Assembly (NCBI RefSeq): GCF_009496005.1
Contig: NZ_WIBF01000002.1
Coordinates: forward strand, 27,503 to 91,502
Source of the DNA: Tritonibacter litoralis
Lineage (GTDB): Bacteria; Pseudomonadota; Alphaproteobacteria; Rhodobacterales; Rhodobacteraceae
Direction of reading: 5' to 3'
DNA: 64,000 nucleotides
Each line of letters opens with the position of its first letter. Within the stretch, counting starts at the first letter, position 1. This document shows positions 51,904 through 60,662 of this stretch, piece by piece. The notes under the pieces are model-generated. The model ran no database searches and was not told the DNA's origin. It saw only the letters and a list, made by a program, of their open reading frames with translations. The position numbers and the translations under genes are program-made.

Positions 51904-52488
51904 TCAATTTCCTTCTTGCGTAAATTCAGACGCCGCAGCAGCGGCGTAGTCGAGCATCAAAACAACTTCACCATCGATAAACTCATCATCTTGGAGGGCC
52001 TGTGACAGCGTCGCCACGCCCTGGCTGCGGGCCAGCAAATGGCGCGCGTGCCGCAAAGCAGTGGGCGCATCACAGCCCATTTCTTGGAACTGTTCTGCCA
52101 GCCAATCGCCAAACATGGAAAACAGCGCATTGGCGCGGCTTTGGCTCACGTGGTTTAACTTGCCCAATTCGGACACCAGCGATCCCACGGGGCAACCAAA
52201 CTGCGTGATCTTGGCCCGGTTGCGGATCAGAATGCGGATAAAGCAGCCGATCCGGTCCAGTGGCGTTTGCCCCTGCGCATCCCAGGTTTCCATCATCCCT
52301 TTGGTCTTGGCAATGCGGCGGTCGATGACCGCATCCAGGATCTCATCCTTGGTTTTGAAGTGATGATAGAAATTCCCCCGCGAAATCCCAACGGCGCCTG
52401 CAATATCGGCAAAAGACGTTGCTTCGAACCCTTGCTCATAAAACAGGGTATCCGCGGCCTGGGCGATCTTTTCACGGGTGGATGACAT
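51904..52488 (-). CDS. TetR-family transcriptional regulator
   Basis: The 194-residue protein has an N-terminal TetR helix-turn-helix (TSFADIAGAVGISRGNFYHH, then FKTKDEIL at about residues 24-51) and a TetR C-terminal domain with CPVGSLVSELGKLNH, typical of the TetR_C_11 group of small aldehyde/electrophile sensors (with a cysteine that may sense). Two palindromes lie just upstream at 52502-52543. It heads a short transcript with the YciI gene and perhaps tag. Confidence 0.92.
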   Translation of the reverse strand: MSSTREKIAQAADTLFYEQGFEATSFADIAGAVGISRGNFYHHFKTKDEILDAVIDRRIAKTKGMMETWDAQGQTPLDRIGCFIRILIRNRAKITQFGCPVGSLVSELGKLNHVSQSRANALFSMFGDWLAEQFQEMGCDAPTALRHARHLLARSQGVATLSQALQDDEFIDGEVVLMLDYAAAAASEFTQEGN

Positions 52489-55058: not shown

Positions 55059-55133
55059 GTGCGAAATCTCGCGTTTGTCGCGTTGTTACTGCTGATGCTG
55101 GGCCTCAGCACCGGTTGGATTGTGGGGGTCTGA
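55059..55133 (+). CDS. 24-residue membrane peptide before xpaC
   Basis: A GTG at 55059 follows GGGGGAGA with good spacing and opens 24 codons ending in TGA at 55131. The peptide (MRNLAFVALLLLMLG, then LSTGWIVGV) is one hydrophobic helix with an arginine near the start. The XpaC ATG follows only four bases later, so translation is coupled. I recognise no family. The ribosome site, position and charge layout favour a real gene. Confidence 0.5.
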   Translation: MRNLAFVALLLLMLGLSTGWIVGV

Positions 55134-55137
55134 TCAA

Positions 55138-56034
55138 ATGGCTCAACGGTTTGGTGGAAAATTCAGCCCCGATGGCGCGCCGCAGAACAGTTCTGCAAAG
55201 CCCGCCGCAGGCCCGTTCAAGAACGCGCGTGTGAATCCGGTTGGCCTGCGGGCCAATATGATGGCGGTGCCGGTGGCGGTTTTGCTGTTCTTCTCGCTGT
55301 TCAGCGGGGCCAGCGGCATGGCCCTGGGCCTTTTGGGTGCAGCATCCTGGGCCGGGGCCTGGGTGATGCTGCGCGAGGGGCTCAAGGCCGAGGCTGCGTT
55401 TAACGACCGGCGGGTGGCCAAACGGCCTGCCCTGCCCCGCAAGATTCTGGCGGCTATTTTGGTTGGCATTGGCGCAGGCTTTGCCGCCTGGAAAGCGGAA
55501 CCCGGCGCGGTGATTGCCGTTGTCTATGCGATTGCTGCGGCGGCCTTGCATCTGGCGGCCTTTGGTCTGGATCCCCTGTCCGACAAAGGCGTCGAAGGGG
55601 TGGATGAGTTTCAACAAAACCGTGTGGCACGAGTGATCGATGAGGCCGAGACTCATCTGAGCGCCATGAGCGATGCGGTTTTGCGCGCCCGCGACCGGCA
55701 GGTGGAACGCCGGGTTGATCAGTTTCAATCGGTGGTGCGTGACCTGTTCCGCACGGTCGAAGAAGATCCGCGCGATCTGACGGCGGCCCGCAAATACTTG
55801 ACCGTCTATTTGCTGGGTGCGCGGGATGCGACGGTGAAATTTGCCGATATCTATGCCCGCAGCCAGGACGCGCAGGCGCGCAGTGATTACATGACCTTGC
55901 TGGACGATCTTGAACAGAATTTTGCAGCCCGTAATCGCAAAATGCTGCTGGAGGATCGCAGCGACTTAACGGTTGAAATTGATGTATTGCGCGAAAGATT
56001 GCAGCGCGAAGGCGTCCGGTTGGACGAAACTTAA
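55138..56034 (+). CDS. XpaC-like protein
   Basis: The 298-residue protein has a Gly/Pro/Ala-rich start, two pairs of membrane segments (about residues 42-80 and 99-143), and a helical C-terminal half with YLLGARDATVKFADIYARS and DLEQNFAARNRKMLLED, the XpaC (5-bromo-4-chloroindolyl phosphate hydrolysis) domain. In Bacillus xpaC pairs with yceH/telA. The ATG is at 55138. It heads, after the 24-residue peptide, a five-gene plus-strand series with telA. Confidence 0.88.
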   Translation: MAQRFGGKFSPDGAPQNSSAKPAAGPFKNARVNPVGLRANMMAVPVAVLLFFSLFSGASGMALGLLGAASWAGAWVMLREGLKAEAAFNDRRVAKRPALPRKILAAILVGIGAGFAAWKAEPGAVIAVVYAIAAAALHLAAFGLDPLSDKGVEGVDEFQQNRVARVIDEAETHLSAMSDAVLRARDRQVERRVDQFQSVVRDLFRTVEEDPRDLTAARKYLTVYLLGARDATVKFADIYARSQDAQARSDYMTLLDDLEQNFAARNRKMLLEDRSDLTVEIDVLRERLQREGVRLDET

Positions 56035-56067
56035 ATTCAAATTTGGTGACAGAACGAGGAACTGCTG

Positions 56068-57258
56068 ATGTCCGAGATGATCCAGAAGAAAGCCGCCGAG
56101 GCCGAAGTATTGGTCAAGGAAGTAACTGGCGTTGAACTTGCCTCACCGATGGAAGCGGTGCAGCCGCTTGCAGAGGCGGATGATGCAACCTCGGGCGCGA
56201 TCCGCCAGCGTATGGATGAGATCGACATGGCCAACACCAATTCGATCATCGCTTTTGGATCGGGCGCGCAGGCGGAATTGCAGACCATCAGCCAGGCCAT
56301 GCTGCAGGATGTGCGCAACAAGGACGTGGGCCCTGCTGGCGACAGTCTGCGCGGCATTGTCACGACGATCCGGGGCTTTTCCGTTTCGGAACTGGATGTG
56401 CGGCGCAAACCCTCGTTTTTTGAACGGATCCTGGGGCGCGCTGCGCCGTTTGCCAAATTCACTGCCCGCTATGAGACGGTGCAGGGTCAGATCGACAAGA
56501 TCACCGATGATCTTTTGGCGCATGAACATACGCTGTTGAAAGACATCAAATCGCTTGACCTTCTCTATGACAAAACGCTCGCGTTTTATGATGAGCTGGC
56601 GCTTTATATTGCGGCAGGTGAGGCCAAGCTGGAAGAGCTGGACGGCACTGAGATCCCCGCCAAAGAGGCCGAGGTTCAGGCGGCACCGGAAAATGATCAG
56701 GTTATGAAAGCCCAAGAGCTGCGGGATTTGCGCGCGGCGCGCGATGACTTGGAACGCCGGGTGCATGATCTGAAGCTGACCCGCCAGGTCACCATGCAGT
56801 CCCTGCCCTCGATCCGTCTGGTGCAGGAAAACGACAAATCCCTGGTGACCAAGATCAACTCAACCCTCGTGAACACAGTGCCCTTGTGGGAAACCCAACT
56901 GGCGCAGGCCTTGACCATCCAGCGGTCAACCGAGGCGGCGGCAGCGGTGCGGGATGCCAATGATCTGACCAATGAACTGTTGACCGCCAATGCGTCGAAC
57001 CTGCGCGAAAGCAACAAGATGATCCGCCAGGAAATGGAGCGCGGCGTGTTTGACATCGAAGCGGTGAAACAGGCCAATGCGGATCTGATCGGCACCATTC
57101 AGGAAAGCTTGCAGATCGCCGATGAGGGCAAGGCCAAACGCGCTGCAGCCGAGGATGATCTGAAGAAAATGGAAGCCGAGCTGCGCGACACATTAGCGGC
57201 CGCCAAGGCGCGCCGCGATGGTGTTGGTGACAACGCCGGAACCGCTGTTCCGGCTTAA
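56068..57258 (+). CDS. telA: TelA-family toxic anion resistance protein
   Basis: The 396-residue protein is nearly all helical with long coiled-coil stretches. LDLLYDKTLAFYDELALYIA and LVTKINSTLVNTVPLWETQL match the TelA/KlaA family. TelA is linked to tellurite and colicin tolerance and to membrane stress in general. AGGAACTG precedes the ATG at 56068. It follows XpaC by 33 bases, the standard pairing. Confidence 0.94.
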   Translation: MSEMIQKKAAEAEVLVKEVTGVELASPMEAVQPLAEADDATSGAIRQRMDEIDMANTNSIIAFGSGAQAELQTISQAMLQDVRNKDVGPAGDSLRGIVTTIRGFSVSELDVRRKPSFFERILGRAAPFAKFTARYETVQGQIDKITDDLLAHEHTLLKDIKSLDLLYDKTLAFYDELALYIAAGEAKLEELDGTEIPAKEAEVQAAPENDQVMKAQELRDLRAARDDLERRVHDLKLTRQVTMQSLPSIRLVQENDKSLVTKINSTLVNTVPLWETQLAQALTIQRSTEAAAAVRDANDLTNELLTANASNLRESNKMIRQEMERGVFDIEAVKQANADLIGTIQESLQIADEGKAKRAAAEDDLKKMEAELRDTLAAAKARRDGVGDNAGTAVPA

Positions 57259-57273
57259 CTGGACATCCCTTGA

Positions 57274-58218
57274 ATGCCGTCGTTTGTTGGACAGAGTTTT
57301 GGCTGGGGTGCGCGGGCCTGTGTGGCGGCGCTGGTGCTGGCTGTGGGGGCCTGTGAAAATCCAGGCCAGCAGGTGTCGCTGGTGCCGCCAGCGCGCCCGG
57401 CGGCCCTGGCCCCGCCAGCGCCTTCGGCACAAAGCGAAAAGCTTGCCAATTTCTATCGCGCCCTGCAGCGCGATCTGCTGACGCGGGGGCTGTTGCGCGA
57501 AGATGGTGGCGGGCCGGATACGCCTTATGACGCCGAAGATCTGATCCGCAATTTTGAAACCATCGCGTTTTTTGACGAGCATTTCCGGCAAGGGATTGGC
57601 ACCAAAGGCGCGCTGAGCCGCTGGGAAGGGCCGGTGCGGTTGCAAGCCGTCTTTGCGCCGTCGGTGACACAAGAGCAACGGGCCAGTGATCGCAGGGAAC
57701 TGTCCGGTTATGCTGCGCGTCTGGCGCGGATCACGGGCCATTCGGTGACGGCGGTCAATCAAGGTGGCAATTTCAAGGTGATTTACGCCGGTGTCGACGA
57801 CAAGGACTTTATTCGCAAGGAAGTTCTACGGCAACTGCCGCGCATAAACGCAAGCCAGCTGGACACATTGGTGAACACACCCGAGATCTATTTTTGCCTG
57901 GTGGTTGCGGGCGGGCAGCTGCGTACGCCCTTTGCCTATACCCAAGGGGTGGCGCTGATCCGGGCTGAACACCCAAGCCTGACACGGCGCGCCTGCCTGC
58001 ATGAAGAGGTGGCGCAAGGGCTGGGTCTGCGCAATGACAGCCCGCGCGCGCGGCCTTCGATTTTCAATGATGACGAAGAATTTGCGCGTCTCACCAGCCA
58101 TGATGAGCTGTTGTTGAAGATGTTATATGATGCGCGGTTGTCGCCCGGCATGACGACCGAGACCGCGCATCCGATTGTGACCGAGATCGCCTATGAATTG
58201 ACGGGGGAAACCCCGTGA
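57274..58218 (+). CDS. DUF2927 lipoprotein with a HExxxQG motif
   Basis: The 314-residue protein begins with a signal ending in LVLAVGAC, a lipobox. The mature domain is DUF2927: AEDLIRNFETIAFFDEH, a central RITGHSV, and CLHEEVAQGLGLRNDSP near residue 247, followed by FNDDEEFARLTSHDELLLKMLYD. The HEEVAQGLGL string resembles the zinc site of metallopeptidases (HExxx with a further acid residue). A periplasmic, membrane-tethered peptidase is possible. It follows telA by 15 bases. Confidence 0.82.
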   Translation: MPSFVGQSFGWGARACVAALVLAVGACENPGQQVSLVPPARPAALAPPAPSAQSEKLANFYRALQRDLLTRGLLREDGGGPDTPYDAEDLIRNFETIAFFDEHFRQGIGTKGALSRWEGPVRLQAVFAPSVTQEQRASDRRELSGYAARLARITGHSVTAVNQGGNFKVIYAGVDDKDFIRKEVLRQLPRINASQLDTLVNTPEIYFCLVVAGGQLRTPFAYTQGVALIRAEHPSLTRRACLHEEVAQGLGLRNDSPRARPSIFNDDEEFARLTSHDELLLKMLYDARLSPGMTTETAHPIVTEIAYELTGETP

Positions 58219-58256
58219 ATTGGCACGGCACCAGAGAGAGGTAAGAGGATCAGACC

Positions 58257-59444
58257 ATGGGTATTTTCGACTTTTTGAAGGGTGAGTTTATTGACGTCAT
58301 CCATTGGGTAGATGACACGCATGACACGATGGTCTGGCGGTTTGAACGCGAAGGCCATGAGATCAAATACGGTGCCAAACTGACGGTGCGCGAGGGGCAG
58401 TCGGCGGTCTTTGTGCATGAGGGGCAGCTGGCGGATGTCTTTACCCCCGGTCTTTATATGCTTGAGACCAACAATATGCCGATCATGACCACGCTGCAGC
58501 ATTGGGACCACGGGTTTCAATCGCCGTTCAAGTCAGAGATCTATTTTGTCGACACCACGCGGTTTAATGATCTGAAATGGGGCACCAAAAACCCGATCAT
58601 CTGCCGTGATCCTGAATTTGGTCCCGTGCGTCTGCGCGCTTTTGGCACCTATAGCGTGCGCGTGGTGGATCCAGCCCGCTTCCTGACCGAGATCGTGGGC
58701 ACGGATGGTGAATTCACCATGGATGAGATCTCATTCCAGGTGCGCAATATCATTGTGCAAGAGTTCAGCCGCGTGGTCGCGGGATCTGGCATTCCGGTGC
58801 TGGATATGGCGGCCAATACCGGTGATCTGGGCAAGCTGGTGGCGGCTGAGATTTCCGGCACCATTGCGGAATATGGCCTCGCCATCCCTGAGCTTTATAT
58901 CGAGAACATCTCCCTGCCCCCTGCGGTCGAGGCGGCGATGGACAAGCGCACGCAGATGGGGATTATCGGCGATCTGGGGGCCTATACGCAGTTTTCTGCA
59001 GCCGAAGCGATGACCGCGGCAGCACAGACGCCCAACAGCGGCATGGGTGCCGGGCTAGGCATGGGAATGGGCATGGCGATGGCCCAGCAGATGGGGAACC
59101 AGTTTGGTGCGGGTGCAGCGGGTCCGGCCTCTGGTCCATGGGGCGCGCGTCCCGCCCCCGCTGCGGCACATCCGCAAGCGCCTGTGGCCAGCGGGCATGC
59201 GGCACCGCCCCCTCCCCCGCCGCCGGTGGAGCATGTGTGGCATATCGCCGAAAATGGCGCGACCACCGGCCCCTATTCCAAAGCGCGGATGGGGCGGATG
59301 GCACAGGATGGCACCCTGACCCGCGCCACTTTGGTCTGGACGCCCGGGCAGGACGGATGGAAAGCCGCCGGTGATGTGGCCGAGCTGGCGCAGCTGTTTA
59401 CCATTCTGCCCCCTCCGCCGCCGCCCCCACCACCGGGCGCGTGA
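58257..59444 (+). CDS. SPFH (YdjI-like) protein with C-terminal GYF-type domain
   Basis: The 395-residue protein has an SPFH-type N-terminal domain (residues about 1-260: GQSAVFVHEGQLADVFTPGL, and VVAGSGIPVLDMAANTGDLG), similar to B. subtilis YdjI. A glycine/methionine- and alanine/proline-rich linker follows, and a C-terminal WHIAENGATTGPYSKARMGR region looks like a GYF_2 domain, ending in a poly-proline tail. Proteins of this kind recruit membrane-stress factors. It is preceded by AGAGAGG before the ATG at 58257. Confidence 0.9.
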   Translation: MGIFDFLKGEFIDVIHWVDDTHDTMVWRFEREGHEIKYGAKLTVREGQSAVFVHEGQLADVFTPGLYMLETNNMPIMTTLQHWDHGFQSPFKSEIYFVDTTRFNDLKWGTKNPIICRDPEFGPVRLRAFGTYSVRVVDPARFLTEIVGTDGEFTMDEISFQVRNIIVQEFSRVVAGSGIPVLDMAANTGDLGKLVAAEISGTIAEYGLAIPELYIENISLPPAVEAAMDKRTQMGIIGDLGAYTQFSAAEAMTAAAQTPNSGMGAGLGMGMGMAMAQQMGNQFGAGAAGPASGPWGARPAPAAAHPQAPVASGHAAPPPPPPPVEHVWHIAENGATTGPYSKARMGRMAQDGTLTRATLVWTPGQDGWKAAGDVAELAQLFTILPPPPPPPPPGA

Positions 59445-59473
59445 TCCGAAGCCGAACCTGACCCCTTGTGAAA

Positions 59474-59500
59474 AGGGCGGTGCGTTTTGGGCACCGCCTT
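59474..59500 (+). terminator. Hairpin between the SPFH and zinc-ribbon genes
   Basis: GGCGGTGC (59476-59483) and GCACCGCC (59491-59498) pair perfectly around a seven-base loop; TTCTC follows. It stands 30 bases after the SPFH gene and ten before the next start, and may lower expression of the downstream gene relative to the rest of the operon. Confidence 0.55.
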
Positions 59501-59510
59501 CTCTGTGACG

Positions 59511-60662
59511 ATGAGCCCTGACATGAGCCAGATGCCGCCCCCGCCGCCCGCTGCAACCGAAGCAGAAGAAACCCACCGGTTCCCCTGTGAGCAATGTGGT
59601 GCAGATTACCGGTATCACCCGGACAGCGGCACGTTGACTTGTGATCATTGTGGTCACACGACGCAGATCCGTGAAGAGGCCTCGTCAGGCCCTTGGGGAG
59701 GCGGCAACGGCGCGATGGAGGAGCTGGACTTCAAAGCCGCCGTTGCCAAGGCCTTGCCTGCGACCGAGATGGAGGTGACACGGGTCAGCAGCTGCCCGAA
59801 CTGCGCCGCGCAAGTGGAATTTGATCCCACCACCCACGCCCGCGAATGCCCGTTTTGCGCCACACCCGTGGTGGCAGATACCGGCCCCAATCGGCATATC
59901 AAGCCCAAGGGGGTTGTGCCTTTTGCGGTGGATGAACGCAGCGCGCAGACGGCCATGACCCAATGGCTGGGGCGTTTGTGGTTTGCCCCAAATGGCTTGC
60001 AAGAATATGCCCGCAAAGGGCGCAAGATGGACGGGATCTATGTGCCGTTCTGGACCTATGATGCCGAAACCCGCACCCAATATCGCGGCCAGCGTGGCAC
60101 CGTGTATTATGTCGAGCAAAAGGTGGTTGTCGACGGGAAGAGCCAGACCCGCCGCGTGGCCAAGGTGCGCTGGACCGGTGTTACCGGGCGGGTGCGCCGG
60201 TTCTTTGACGACGTGCTGGTTCTGGCGTCCAAATCACTGCCCAAGCGCAATACCGAAGGGTTGGAGCCCTGGGACCTGTCGCAGCTGGAGCCTTATCAAC
60301 CGCAGTATCTGGCCGGGTTTCGCGCCGAAGCTTACGCGGTGGATCTGGAGGCTGGATTTGCGGAGGCCCGCGCCAAAATGGACCGGGTGATTGAACGGGA
60401 CGTGCGGTTTGACATTGGTGGCGACCGGCAACGGATCGACAGCCTGCGCACGGATGTGAGCGATGTGACGTTCAAACATGTGCTGCTGCCTGTCTGGCTT
60501 GCGGCCTATAAATACCGGGGCAAGACCTATCGCTTTGTCGTGAACGGCCAGTCGGGCCGTGTGCAGGGCGAGCGTCCCTATTCCGCGTGGAAGATTGCCT
60601 TTGCAGTGCTGTTGGGTCTGTTGGTTCTGGGCGGTGTGGCGCTGGTTGGCGGCATGAAGTAA
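59511..60662 (+). CDS. Membrane-anchored double zinc-ribbon protein (YdjG-like)
   Basis: The 383-residue protein starts with two zinc ribbons of the TFIIB type: CEQCGADYRYHPDSG with CDHCG (residues about 24-48), and CPNCAAQVEFDPTTH with CPFC (about 98-118). A long beta-rich domain follows, with VPFWTYDAETRTQYRGQRG, and one C-terminal membrane segment (AVLLGLLVLGGVALVGG). B. subtilis YdjG has the same ribbon-plus-anchor layout. The start could be 59511 or 59523; neither has a strong ribosome site. It follows the SPFH gene. Confidence 0.85.
   Translation: MSPDMSQMPPPPPAATEAEETHRFPCEQCGADYRYHPDSGTLTCDHCGHTTQIREEASSGPWGGGNGAMEELDFKAAVAKALPATEMEVTRVSSCPNCAAQVEFDPTTHARECPFCATPVVADTGPNRHIKPKGVVPFAVDERSAQTAMTQWLGRLWFAPNGLQEYARKGRKMDGIYVPFWTYDAETRTQYRGQRGTVYYVEQKVVVDGKSQTRRVAKVRWTGVTGRVRRFFDDVLVLASKSLPKRNTEGLEPWDLSQLEPYQPQYLAGFRAEAYAVDLEAGFAEARAKMDRVIERDVRFDIGGDRQRIDSLRTDVSDVTFKHVLLPVWLAAYKYRGKTYRFVVNGQSGRVQGERPYSAWKIAFAVLLGLLVLGGVALVGGMK

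Follow-up and report, generated by a model that had tools for sequence, protein, structure and literature searches.

A conserved Rhodobacteraceae operon joining XpaC/TelA, an SPFH/zinc-ribbon pair, DUF2927 and a microprotein: a candidate PspA-independent envelope-maintenance system

The window analysed here, a 64,000-nt stretch of Tritonibacter litoralis DNA (assembly GCF_009496005.1, contig NZ_WIBF01000002.1, positions 27,503 to 91,502), carries on its plus strand an operon of five genes encoding, in this order, XpaC, TelA, a DUF2927 protein, an SPFH-GYF protein and a double zinc-ribbon/transmembrane (TM) protein. A 24-codon membrane open reading frame (ORF) precedes the run and is the first ORF of the operon. 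The five-gene operon is a fixed unit in most of the genera that we sampled from the family Rhodobacteraceae, and its composition leads us to propose, with a probability of about one half, that it encodes a PspA-independent system for envelope maintenance, in which an inner-membrane scaffold would be combined with a periplasmic, probably non-catalytic lipoprotein. Such a system would link XpaC/TelA, a ‘toxic anion’ pair that is poorly understood, with a scaffold of SPFH and zinc-ribbon proteins of the type associated with PspA, mostly in bacteria in which no PspA is detected. The analysis also names a conserved microprotein as a candidate partner of XpaC, and it provides DUF2927, a domain of unknown function, with a structural hypothesis, that of a metzincin-like fold without the zinc histidines. 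Operon carriers among the named relatives include Phaeobacter, Sulfitobacter, Leisingera and Shimia, with a reduced form in Paracoccus; since these are cultivable, the claims are testable.

A fixed gene order in the family

The first of the five genes, xpaC (55138..56034; 298 amino acids, aa; PF10112, Halogen_Hydrol, 102 bits), encodes a membrane protein with at most three TM-like stretches. It is followed by telA (56068..57258; 396 aa; PF05816, 366 bits), by a gene for a lipoprotein-like DUF2927 protein (57274..58218; 314 aa; PF11150, 191 bits), by one for an SPFH protein that combines a Band_7_1 domain (PF13421, 337 bits) with a C-terminal GYF_2 domain (PF14237, 72 bits; 58257..59444; 395 aa), and by one for a double zinc-ribbon protein (59511..60662) that has two CxxC pairs and, at its C-terminus, a single TM-like stretch, and whose only Pfam matches are short ones of the zinc-ribbon type. 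The intergenic gaps are 33, 15, 38 and 66 nt, with ATG starts at 55138, 56068, 57274, 58257 and 59511; an in-frame TTG at 55120 is also present for xpaC, for which we took the ATG, and the zinc-ribbon gene could start at ATG 59511 or 59523 (ORF bounds run from stop to stop with a chosen start, and locus coordinates in relatives are approximate). The ORFs, the Pfam matches and these gaps bear out the original prediction of five same-strand genes spaced by 15-66 bases, which was made from the letters of the window and their ORFs. A search against NCBIfam gave no match, and PADLOC returned a single marginal, chance-like one (TniQ_IF on the zinc-ribbon protein, E 0.0068).

Conservation was assessed in a family sample of 159 genomes, one per genus. 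The Band_7_1 SPFH protein is found in 140 of these, TelA in 142 and DUF2927, often in two copies, in 149. TelA and SPFH occur together in 139 genomes, TelA alone in three, SPFH alone in one and neither in 16; where both are present, SPFH lies on the same strand and at most 6 kb downstream of TelA in 131/139, the remainder having the two on different contigs (seven genomes) or 38 kb apart (one, G207). Loci for closer inspection (54 from the family and 32 others) were picked by hand from the match tables, with odd spacings favoured and no random draw. Fifty of the family loci, likewise hand-chosen rather than random, were fetched around SPFH, and 43 of them contain all five genes, with one strand and the same order in 42 of the 43; in the remaining one (L086) the zinc-ribbon gene is inverted. 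XpaC, TelA, SPFH and the zinc-ribbon protein are found together in 46/50.

The source genome (99.8% complete, 54 contigs) gave no match to PspA (PF04012) at E<=1e-5 and none to the TPM domain of YdjH (PF04536) at E<=0.001, and no PspA was found among the scanned neighbours of the operon. The absence of PspA from the neighbourhood, on which the original prediction had rested its suggestion of PspA independence, thus holds and extends, at that threshold, to the whole genome. PspA was detected in 27 of the 159 family genomes, 23 of which belong to the 140 with SPFH; in five of these it lies on the SPFH contig at a distance of 156 kb to 2.3 Mb, and in 18 on other contigs. The unit therefore occurs without a detected PspA in 117/140 sampled hosts. 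A fixed order in many genera without pspA had been proposed as a check, and the adjacency in 131/139 genomes, the common order in 42/50 loci and the rarity of PspA agree with it.

Two halves and a possible scaffold

The SPFH and zinc-ribbon genes recall the pspA-ydjGHI operon of Bacillus subtilis, where a Band_7-type SPFH protein without a membrane anchor of its own shares one operon with a zinc-ribbon protein (PMC8581546, PMC11237479, PMC9239133; statements on cited papers refer throughout to excerpts of their texts). The SPFH protein of the window has no TM-like stretch, and PF13421 also matches in the B. subtilis control. The B. subtilis protein, YdjI, is described as probably soluble, with membrane foci that require YdjG and YdjH (PMC8581546). 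The zinc-ribbon protein is laid out like YdjG, in which two zinc ribbons are combined with another domain and a TM stretch, a likeness drawn from the description of that layout (PMC11237479); its eight cysteines are kept in 96-100% of 122 sequences (120 distinct). The two systems also differ. Unlike the Bacillus operon, that of T. litoralis stands in a genome without detected PspA or TPM protein (YdjH), and has XpaC, TelA, the microprotein and DUF2927 in their place; and its SPFH protein ends in a GYF domain and a proline tail, where the Bacillus protein is described with a zinc ribbon. No column among 149 SPFH sequences (147 distinct) is more than 50% cysteine, i.e. there is no C-terminal zinc ribbon, whereas the GYF-domain residues W361 and W368 and the subsequent P385-P387 are kept in 91-94%. 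The likeness to YdjI and YdjG that had been noted in the original prediction therefore holds for the SPFH family, the lack of its own TM stretch and the zinc-ribbon layout, but not for the missing TPM protein or for the GYF domain in place of the zinc ribbon.

The GYF_2 domain is flanked by proline runs. The proline-rich N-terminus of the zinc-ribbon protein was considered as its ligand and rejected, with ‘PPP’ present before the first CxxC in just 17/122 sequences, so that the conserved tail of the SPFH protein itself is the likelier ligand. Against the Protein Data Bank (PDB), the GYF part matched a gliding-motility protein weakly (E 0.0089) and nothing else, and the TelA and zinc-ribbon sequences gave chance-like matches only.

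The other half of the operon matches a known gene pair, lmo1966-lmo1967 of Listeria, in which PF10112 is likewise followed by PF05816 and which has been likened to XpaC and TelA/YaaN of B. subtilis (PMC12791056). Unlike in the Listeria pair, the genes of the window have the microprotein before them and the SPFH and zinc-ribbon genes after them. TelA has been connected with nisin in Listeria (in a title cited in PMC12791056), and XpaC-like proteins are named alongside responses to bacteriocins, defensins and daptomycin (PMC7864038). Neither TelA nor XpaC is mentioned in the main text of two phage shock protein (PSP) surveys, and no paper on a gene set with TelA, XpaC and SPFH was found by title or start of abstract in the open-licence PMC literature. 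The component families are known; in the literature searched, neither their fixed combination nor the microprotein nor a fold for DUF2927 is found.

By analogy with these relatives, namely Listeria TelA with its nisin connection, the XpaC-like proteins and B. subtilis PspA-YdjGHI, we suggest a role in envelope stress. The soluble SPFH protein would oligomerise beneath the inner membrane, to which the tail-anchored zinc-ribbon protein would tether it, and its GYF domain would bind the adjoining proline runs. TelA could dock onto this scaffold and, together with the membrane-embedded XpaC and microprotein, would stabilise the stressed membrane, in the place held by PspA and YdjH in Bacillus, while DUF2927 may report from the periplasm in Rhodobacterales. 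We infer the PspA-like role of TelA solely from its position in the operon. A PspA-like fold was looked for and found no support: the TelA model, of low confidence (predicted local distance difference test, pLDDT, 73; predicted template modelling score, pTM, 0.54), is all-helical with very long helices of 79 and 117 residues, and neither PspA nor ESCRT-III is among the 50 matches listed by Foldseek or the 50 listed by VIA. The best Foldseek match is a designed three-helix bundle (E 1.6e-3), and the best in VIA are bundles of the AhlB/SmhB/ClyA type (Z 12.5, root-mean-square deviation (rmsd) 3.1, 213 residues aligned), which falls below VIA's own level for helical bundles of about 13.

The lack of a PspA-like match for the TelA model among those listed is one of several observations that weigh against an envelope-maintenance unit of this kind. 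Upstream of the first ORF nothing resembling a promoter was detected, promoter and terminator scans giving results near chance, and a hairpin sits between the SPFH and zinc-ribbon genes. DUF2927 is missing in four family loci (L060, L063, L065 and L071, the last being a contig split of G193), and extra genes are inserted in some loci, including between DUF2927 and SPFH. On the 1.46 Mb plasmid pFER4 of Paracoccus ferrooxidans (L198) the operon comprises TelA, DUF2927, SPFH and zinc-ribbon genes, with neither XpaC nor the microprotein within its 14.7 kb stretch.

The remaining objections come from outside the family, and they bear on the strongest alternative, in which the operon would only serve to co-regulate two stress pairs that act independently, XpaC/TelA against toxic anions and cell-wall antibiotics and SPFH/zinc-ribbon as a membrane scaffold. 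Named relatives (the best 80 of 595) were divided by record titles into 32 ‘Rhodobacterales-like’ loci and 48 others; the set includes Neomegalonema (L122), a member of Rhodobacterales, and two duplicates (L188 = L049, a seed of the peptide model, and L133 = L032). TelA is missing near SPFH in 30 of the 48 (for two of these, the contig is too short to tell), from Bacteroidota, Planctomycetota, Spirochaetales, Geobacter, Methylotuvimicrobium and others, and XpaC/TelA is absent at the SPFH locus in all 14 loci that we inspected outside the class (L092-L105, from 19 SPFH genomes of a phylum sample). Conversely, XpaC/TelA stands without SPFH in L107, L108 and L113, and in G207 the two halves are 38 kb apart, as mentioned above. 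As judged by gene content, the two halves do occur separately elsewhere and are joined in this operon, and therefore neither strictly requires the other.

Several further observations argue against mere cohabitation. Of 190 genomes in a class sample, 62 match SPFH at E<=0.001, nine of them strongly (E below 1e-70) and 53 weakly. TelA is present in all nine, vs 16/190 overall, and adjoins SPFH in seven of them. Among the 19 named loci with SPFH immediately behind TelA, 14 have the two genes separated by -1 to 3 nt, and within the family both halves are absent together in 16/159 genomes. The 32 Rhodobacterales-like loci, some on short contigs, contain TelA in 30 cases, XpaC in 29, DUF2927 in 30 and all five genes in 23, and the other 48 contain TelA in 18, XpaC in 17 and the four-gene set in 13. 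This four-gene set, without DUF2927, recurs in other Alphaproteobacteria, in Gammaproteobacteria and in one Campylobacterales metagenome-assembled genome (MAG); among the 48, TelA-bearing loci come for example from Thiotrichaceae (Thiothrix and others), Sedimenticola, Competibacteraceae, Granulosicoccaceae and the Campylobacterales MAG. Weighing both sides, we consider co-regulation of two unrelated pairs a tentative explanation, clearly below even odds.

Some SPFH loci elsewhere have other partners. In the SPFH/DUF4178/polyamine loci (L096 and, in part, L101-L106) the same SPFH family adjoins a zinc-ribbon-containing protein, as in the window, but its partners by Pfam are DUF4178 (L101) or spermidine synthase and AdoMet decarboxylase (L096), not XpaC/TelA. 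On a Vibrio coralliilyticus plasmid (L200) the neighbours of SPFH and of the hypothetical gene after it include genes with TIR-domain and TRAFs-binding-domain annotations, which is possibly a defence neighbourhood. In Rhodobacter capsulatus, a band 7/SPFH gene pair, rcc3401-rcc3402, is reported to have one of the strongest FnrL binding sites (PMC4634722).

A microprotein ahead of XpaC

The short ORF (55059..55133, plus strand) starts with GTG, stops 4 nt 5’ of the xpaC ATG and encodes a single-TM peptide of 24 aa, VRNLAFVALLLLMLGLSTGWIVGV; a G-rich stretch lies upstream of it. A 24-residue membrane peptide had been part of the original prediction, and it proves to be conserved upstream of xpaC. 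By the comparisons below, it is a conserved membrane microprotein of 24 to about 34 aa, new here and among the best-supported novelties of the operon, and in its genomic distribution it behaves as a pair with XpaC.

A search for short ORFs 5’ of xpaC found the same peptide pattern in many loci. A family-plus-window peptide model scored at least 10 bits in 29 of 46 named xpaC loci (350 nt at the xpaC start), vs 4/1617 control windows. Leaving out L188 and L170, the peptide of the latter being the same as that of the seed L080, the count is 27/44, comprising 27/27 Rhodobacterales-like loci and 0/17 others. In 11 of these 17 sub-threshold loci, nearly all from Gammaproteobacteria by title, a variant of the pattern was seen by eye, and in a leave-one-group-out model all 11 scored 18-44 bits, with control windows at 4.7 or below; the choice of these 11 was made by eye and left out L119, L136, L137, L138, L139 and L167. 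Pooled pN/pS for the peptide is 0.62 in frame, vs 0.96 and 1.48 in the shifted frames, for pairs that are near saturation (pooled pS 0.60).

A six-frame scan of the 159 family genomes, at most 18 of which had contributed rows to the peptide model (A4), gave a match in 130 at E<=0.1. Of the 137 matches in total, 123 share the strand of TelA and precede it by 958-1500 nt, which corresponds to the xpaC start, and five of the other 14 also adjoin an xpaC (G235, G292, G212, G307 and G320). In two of these genomes, G292 (L041) and G212 (L044), xpaC is gone from the TelA operon and has been relocated to a place directly after the peptide; it was the displaced peptide match that led to the relocated xpaC (L201, L202). 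Counting against so close a pairing, the operon locus gave no peptide match in 19 of the 142 genomes with TelA, none was detected at E<0.05 in L208 and L209, where both XpaC and TelA are present, and scores do not go beyond 3.8 to 7.4 bits in L033-L036, the four SPFH/TelA loci from Alphaproteobacteria of other families. In the SPFH-less loci L107-L117 the peptide score never exceeds 5.1 bits, a weak control, because only L113 and L117 have xpaC before telA. The pattern of presence and absence thus indicates that the peptide accompanies the xpaC of this operon type. One match (L205, in G345, with no TelA detected) has no adjoining xpaC and may be a relic or have arisen by chance.

The ORF might instead be a mere leader peptide that couples or attenuates translation of xpaC, its product having no role in the membrane. 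Its stop 4 nt before the xpaC ATG would suit such a leader, as would its position ahead of xpaC even at the relocated sites. However, a charged N-terminal end and one TM stretch are kept across Alpha- and Gammaproteobacteria, for which coupling alone would have no need, and we regard a pure leader as rather unlikely. These same features suggest a small membrane subunit, and we infer that the peptide would be translated and would bind XpaC.

A predicted metzincin-like fold without zinc histidines in DUF2927

Many members of DUF2927 have a lipobox-like cysteine at their start (judged by eye), and the protein is therefore probably a periplasmic lipoprotein. The original prediction had pointed to a HExxx motif in it. 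This motif is present in the protein of the window (H243-E244-E245-V-A-Q248), but H243 is variable across 33 sequences, and a metalloprotease of the HExxH type was rejected on this ground. Invariant in the 33 are, among others, C208, C241, E244, E245, Q248, G251, L252, N254 and D255, and M293, a possible Met-turn methionine, is nearly so.

An AlphaFold2 model of the protein (pLDDT 88.6, pTM 0.83) gave with Foldseek a best E of 9.8e-4, the sole match at E<=0.001, and the 50 matches listed are all metzincins, namely matrix metalloproteinases (MMPs), karilysin and snapalysin. VIA aligned 151 residues of the model with MMP-7 (Z 11.5, rmsd 3.1), and its 50 matches listed are MMPs or karilysin. Sequence and profile searches against the PDB, and Pfam searches with the 33 members, gave nothing useful, and no publication on DUF2927 was found in the open-licence PMC literature. 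The model thus appears to share the fold of matrixins and other metzincins such as MMP-7, karilysin and snapalysin. Metzincins bind zinc through the motif HExxHxxGxxH. In DUF2927 a motif EExxQxxGxxND, invariant in the 33 sequences, lies at the end of the helix 235-250 and is spaced like HExxHxxGxxH, with E, Q and N at the three histidine places, a register that follows from the motif spacing and the position of the helix. DUF2927 is therefore predicted to have a metzincin-like fold without the zinc histidines, and from their loss it is probably a non-catalytic pseudoprotease with a binding or sensing role, or else a site for another metal.

HflKC and flotillin scaffolds provide the model for a further alternative, a complex for membrane-protein quality control or biogenesis in which DUF2927 would be an active periplasmic metallopeptidase that uses other ligands and clips damaged envelope proteins; the predicted fold, the invariant E245 at the place of the catalytic glutamate and the invariant possible oxygen ligands E244, Q248, N254 and D255 make a non-zinc metal conceivable, but the invariant non-histidine residues at all three zinc-histidine places (by motif spacing) and the lack of any protease family match by sequence make this improbable.

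DUF2927 is an addition and does not belong to the wider core: it is seen in 30/32 Rhodobacterales-like named loci vs 0/48 others, a split that is partly circular because the Rhodobacterales-like label of one locus (L164) also drew on gene content. In L120, L122 and L143 a tandem DUF2927 pair lies between TelA and SPFH, several copies having a non-histidine residue before the EE motif. In L063 a 330-aa ORF, coiled-coil-like by eye, replaces DUF2927 at this position, and in another alphaproteobacterial family (L115, in G112) DUF2927 and TelA genes stand on opposite strands some 4 kb apart, with no SPFH.

A bolder version of the envelope-maintenance proposal would make the microprotein an obligate partner of XpaC and thus a sixth subunit of a PspA-free membrane-repair machine, with TelA assembling on the SPFH-GYF scaffold and the histidine-free metzincin sensing periplasmic damage. 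This version is doubtful as a whole, and we hold it with correspondingly less confidence than the general proposal.

Other features of the locus and its relatives are recorded here. The 10-bp hairpin in the SPFH/zinc-ribbon gap (59474..59500, plus strand) was considered as a conserved attenuator and rejected: it is not widely conserved and is no better than shuffles (z -0.52), and a perfect GC-rich stem of at least 6 occurs in 16/83 short junctions. A TerC-family gene lies upstream of the microprotein and xpaC in 13 of the 50 fetched family loci, including L043, L057 and L076; the only TerC match of the source genome (29 bits) sits on another contig. A short cytochrome b561-like gene is found between the SPFH and zinc-ribbon genes in 11 loci (L039, L048, L049, L055-L058, L060, L079, L085 and L088). 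Pfam confirmed the TerC identity in one locus and the cytochrome b561 identity in two (L039 and L088), other inserts being named by eye. In the window, a D-Tyr-tRNA deacylase gene, which we do not count in the unit, starts 12 nt past the zinc-ribbon gene. On the minus strand, a gene at 52566-53402 matches APH_6_hur (139 bits), a family of aminoglycoside/hydroxyurea kinases, and is adjoined by one for a TetR-type regulator at 51904-52488.

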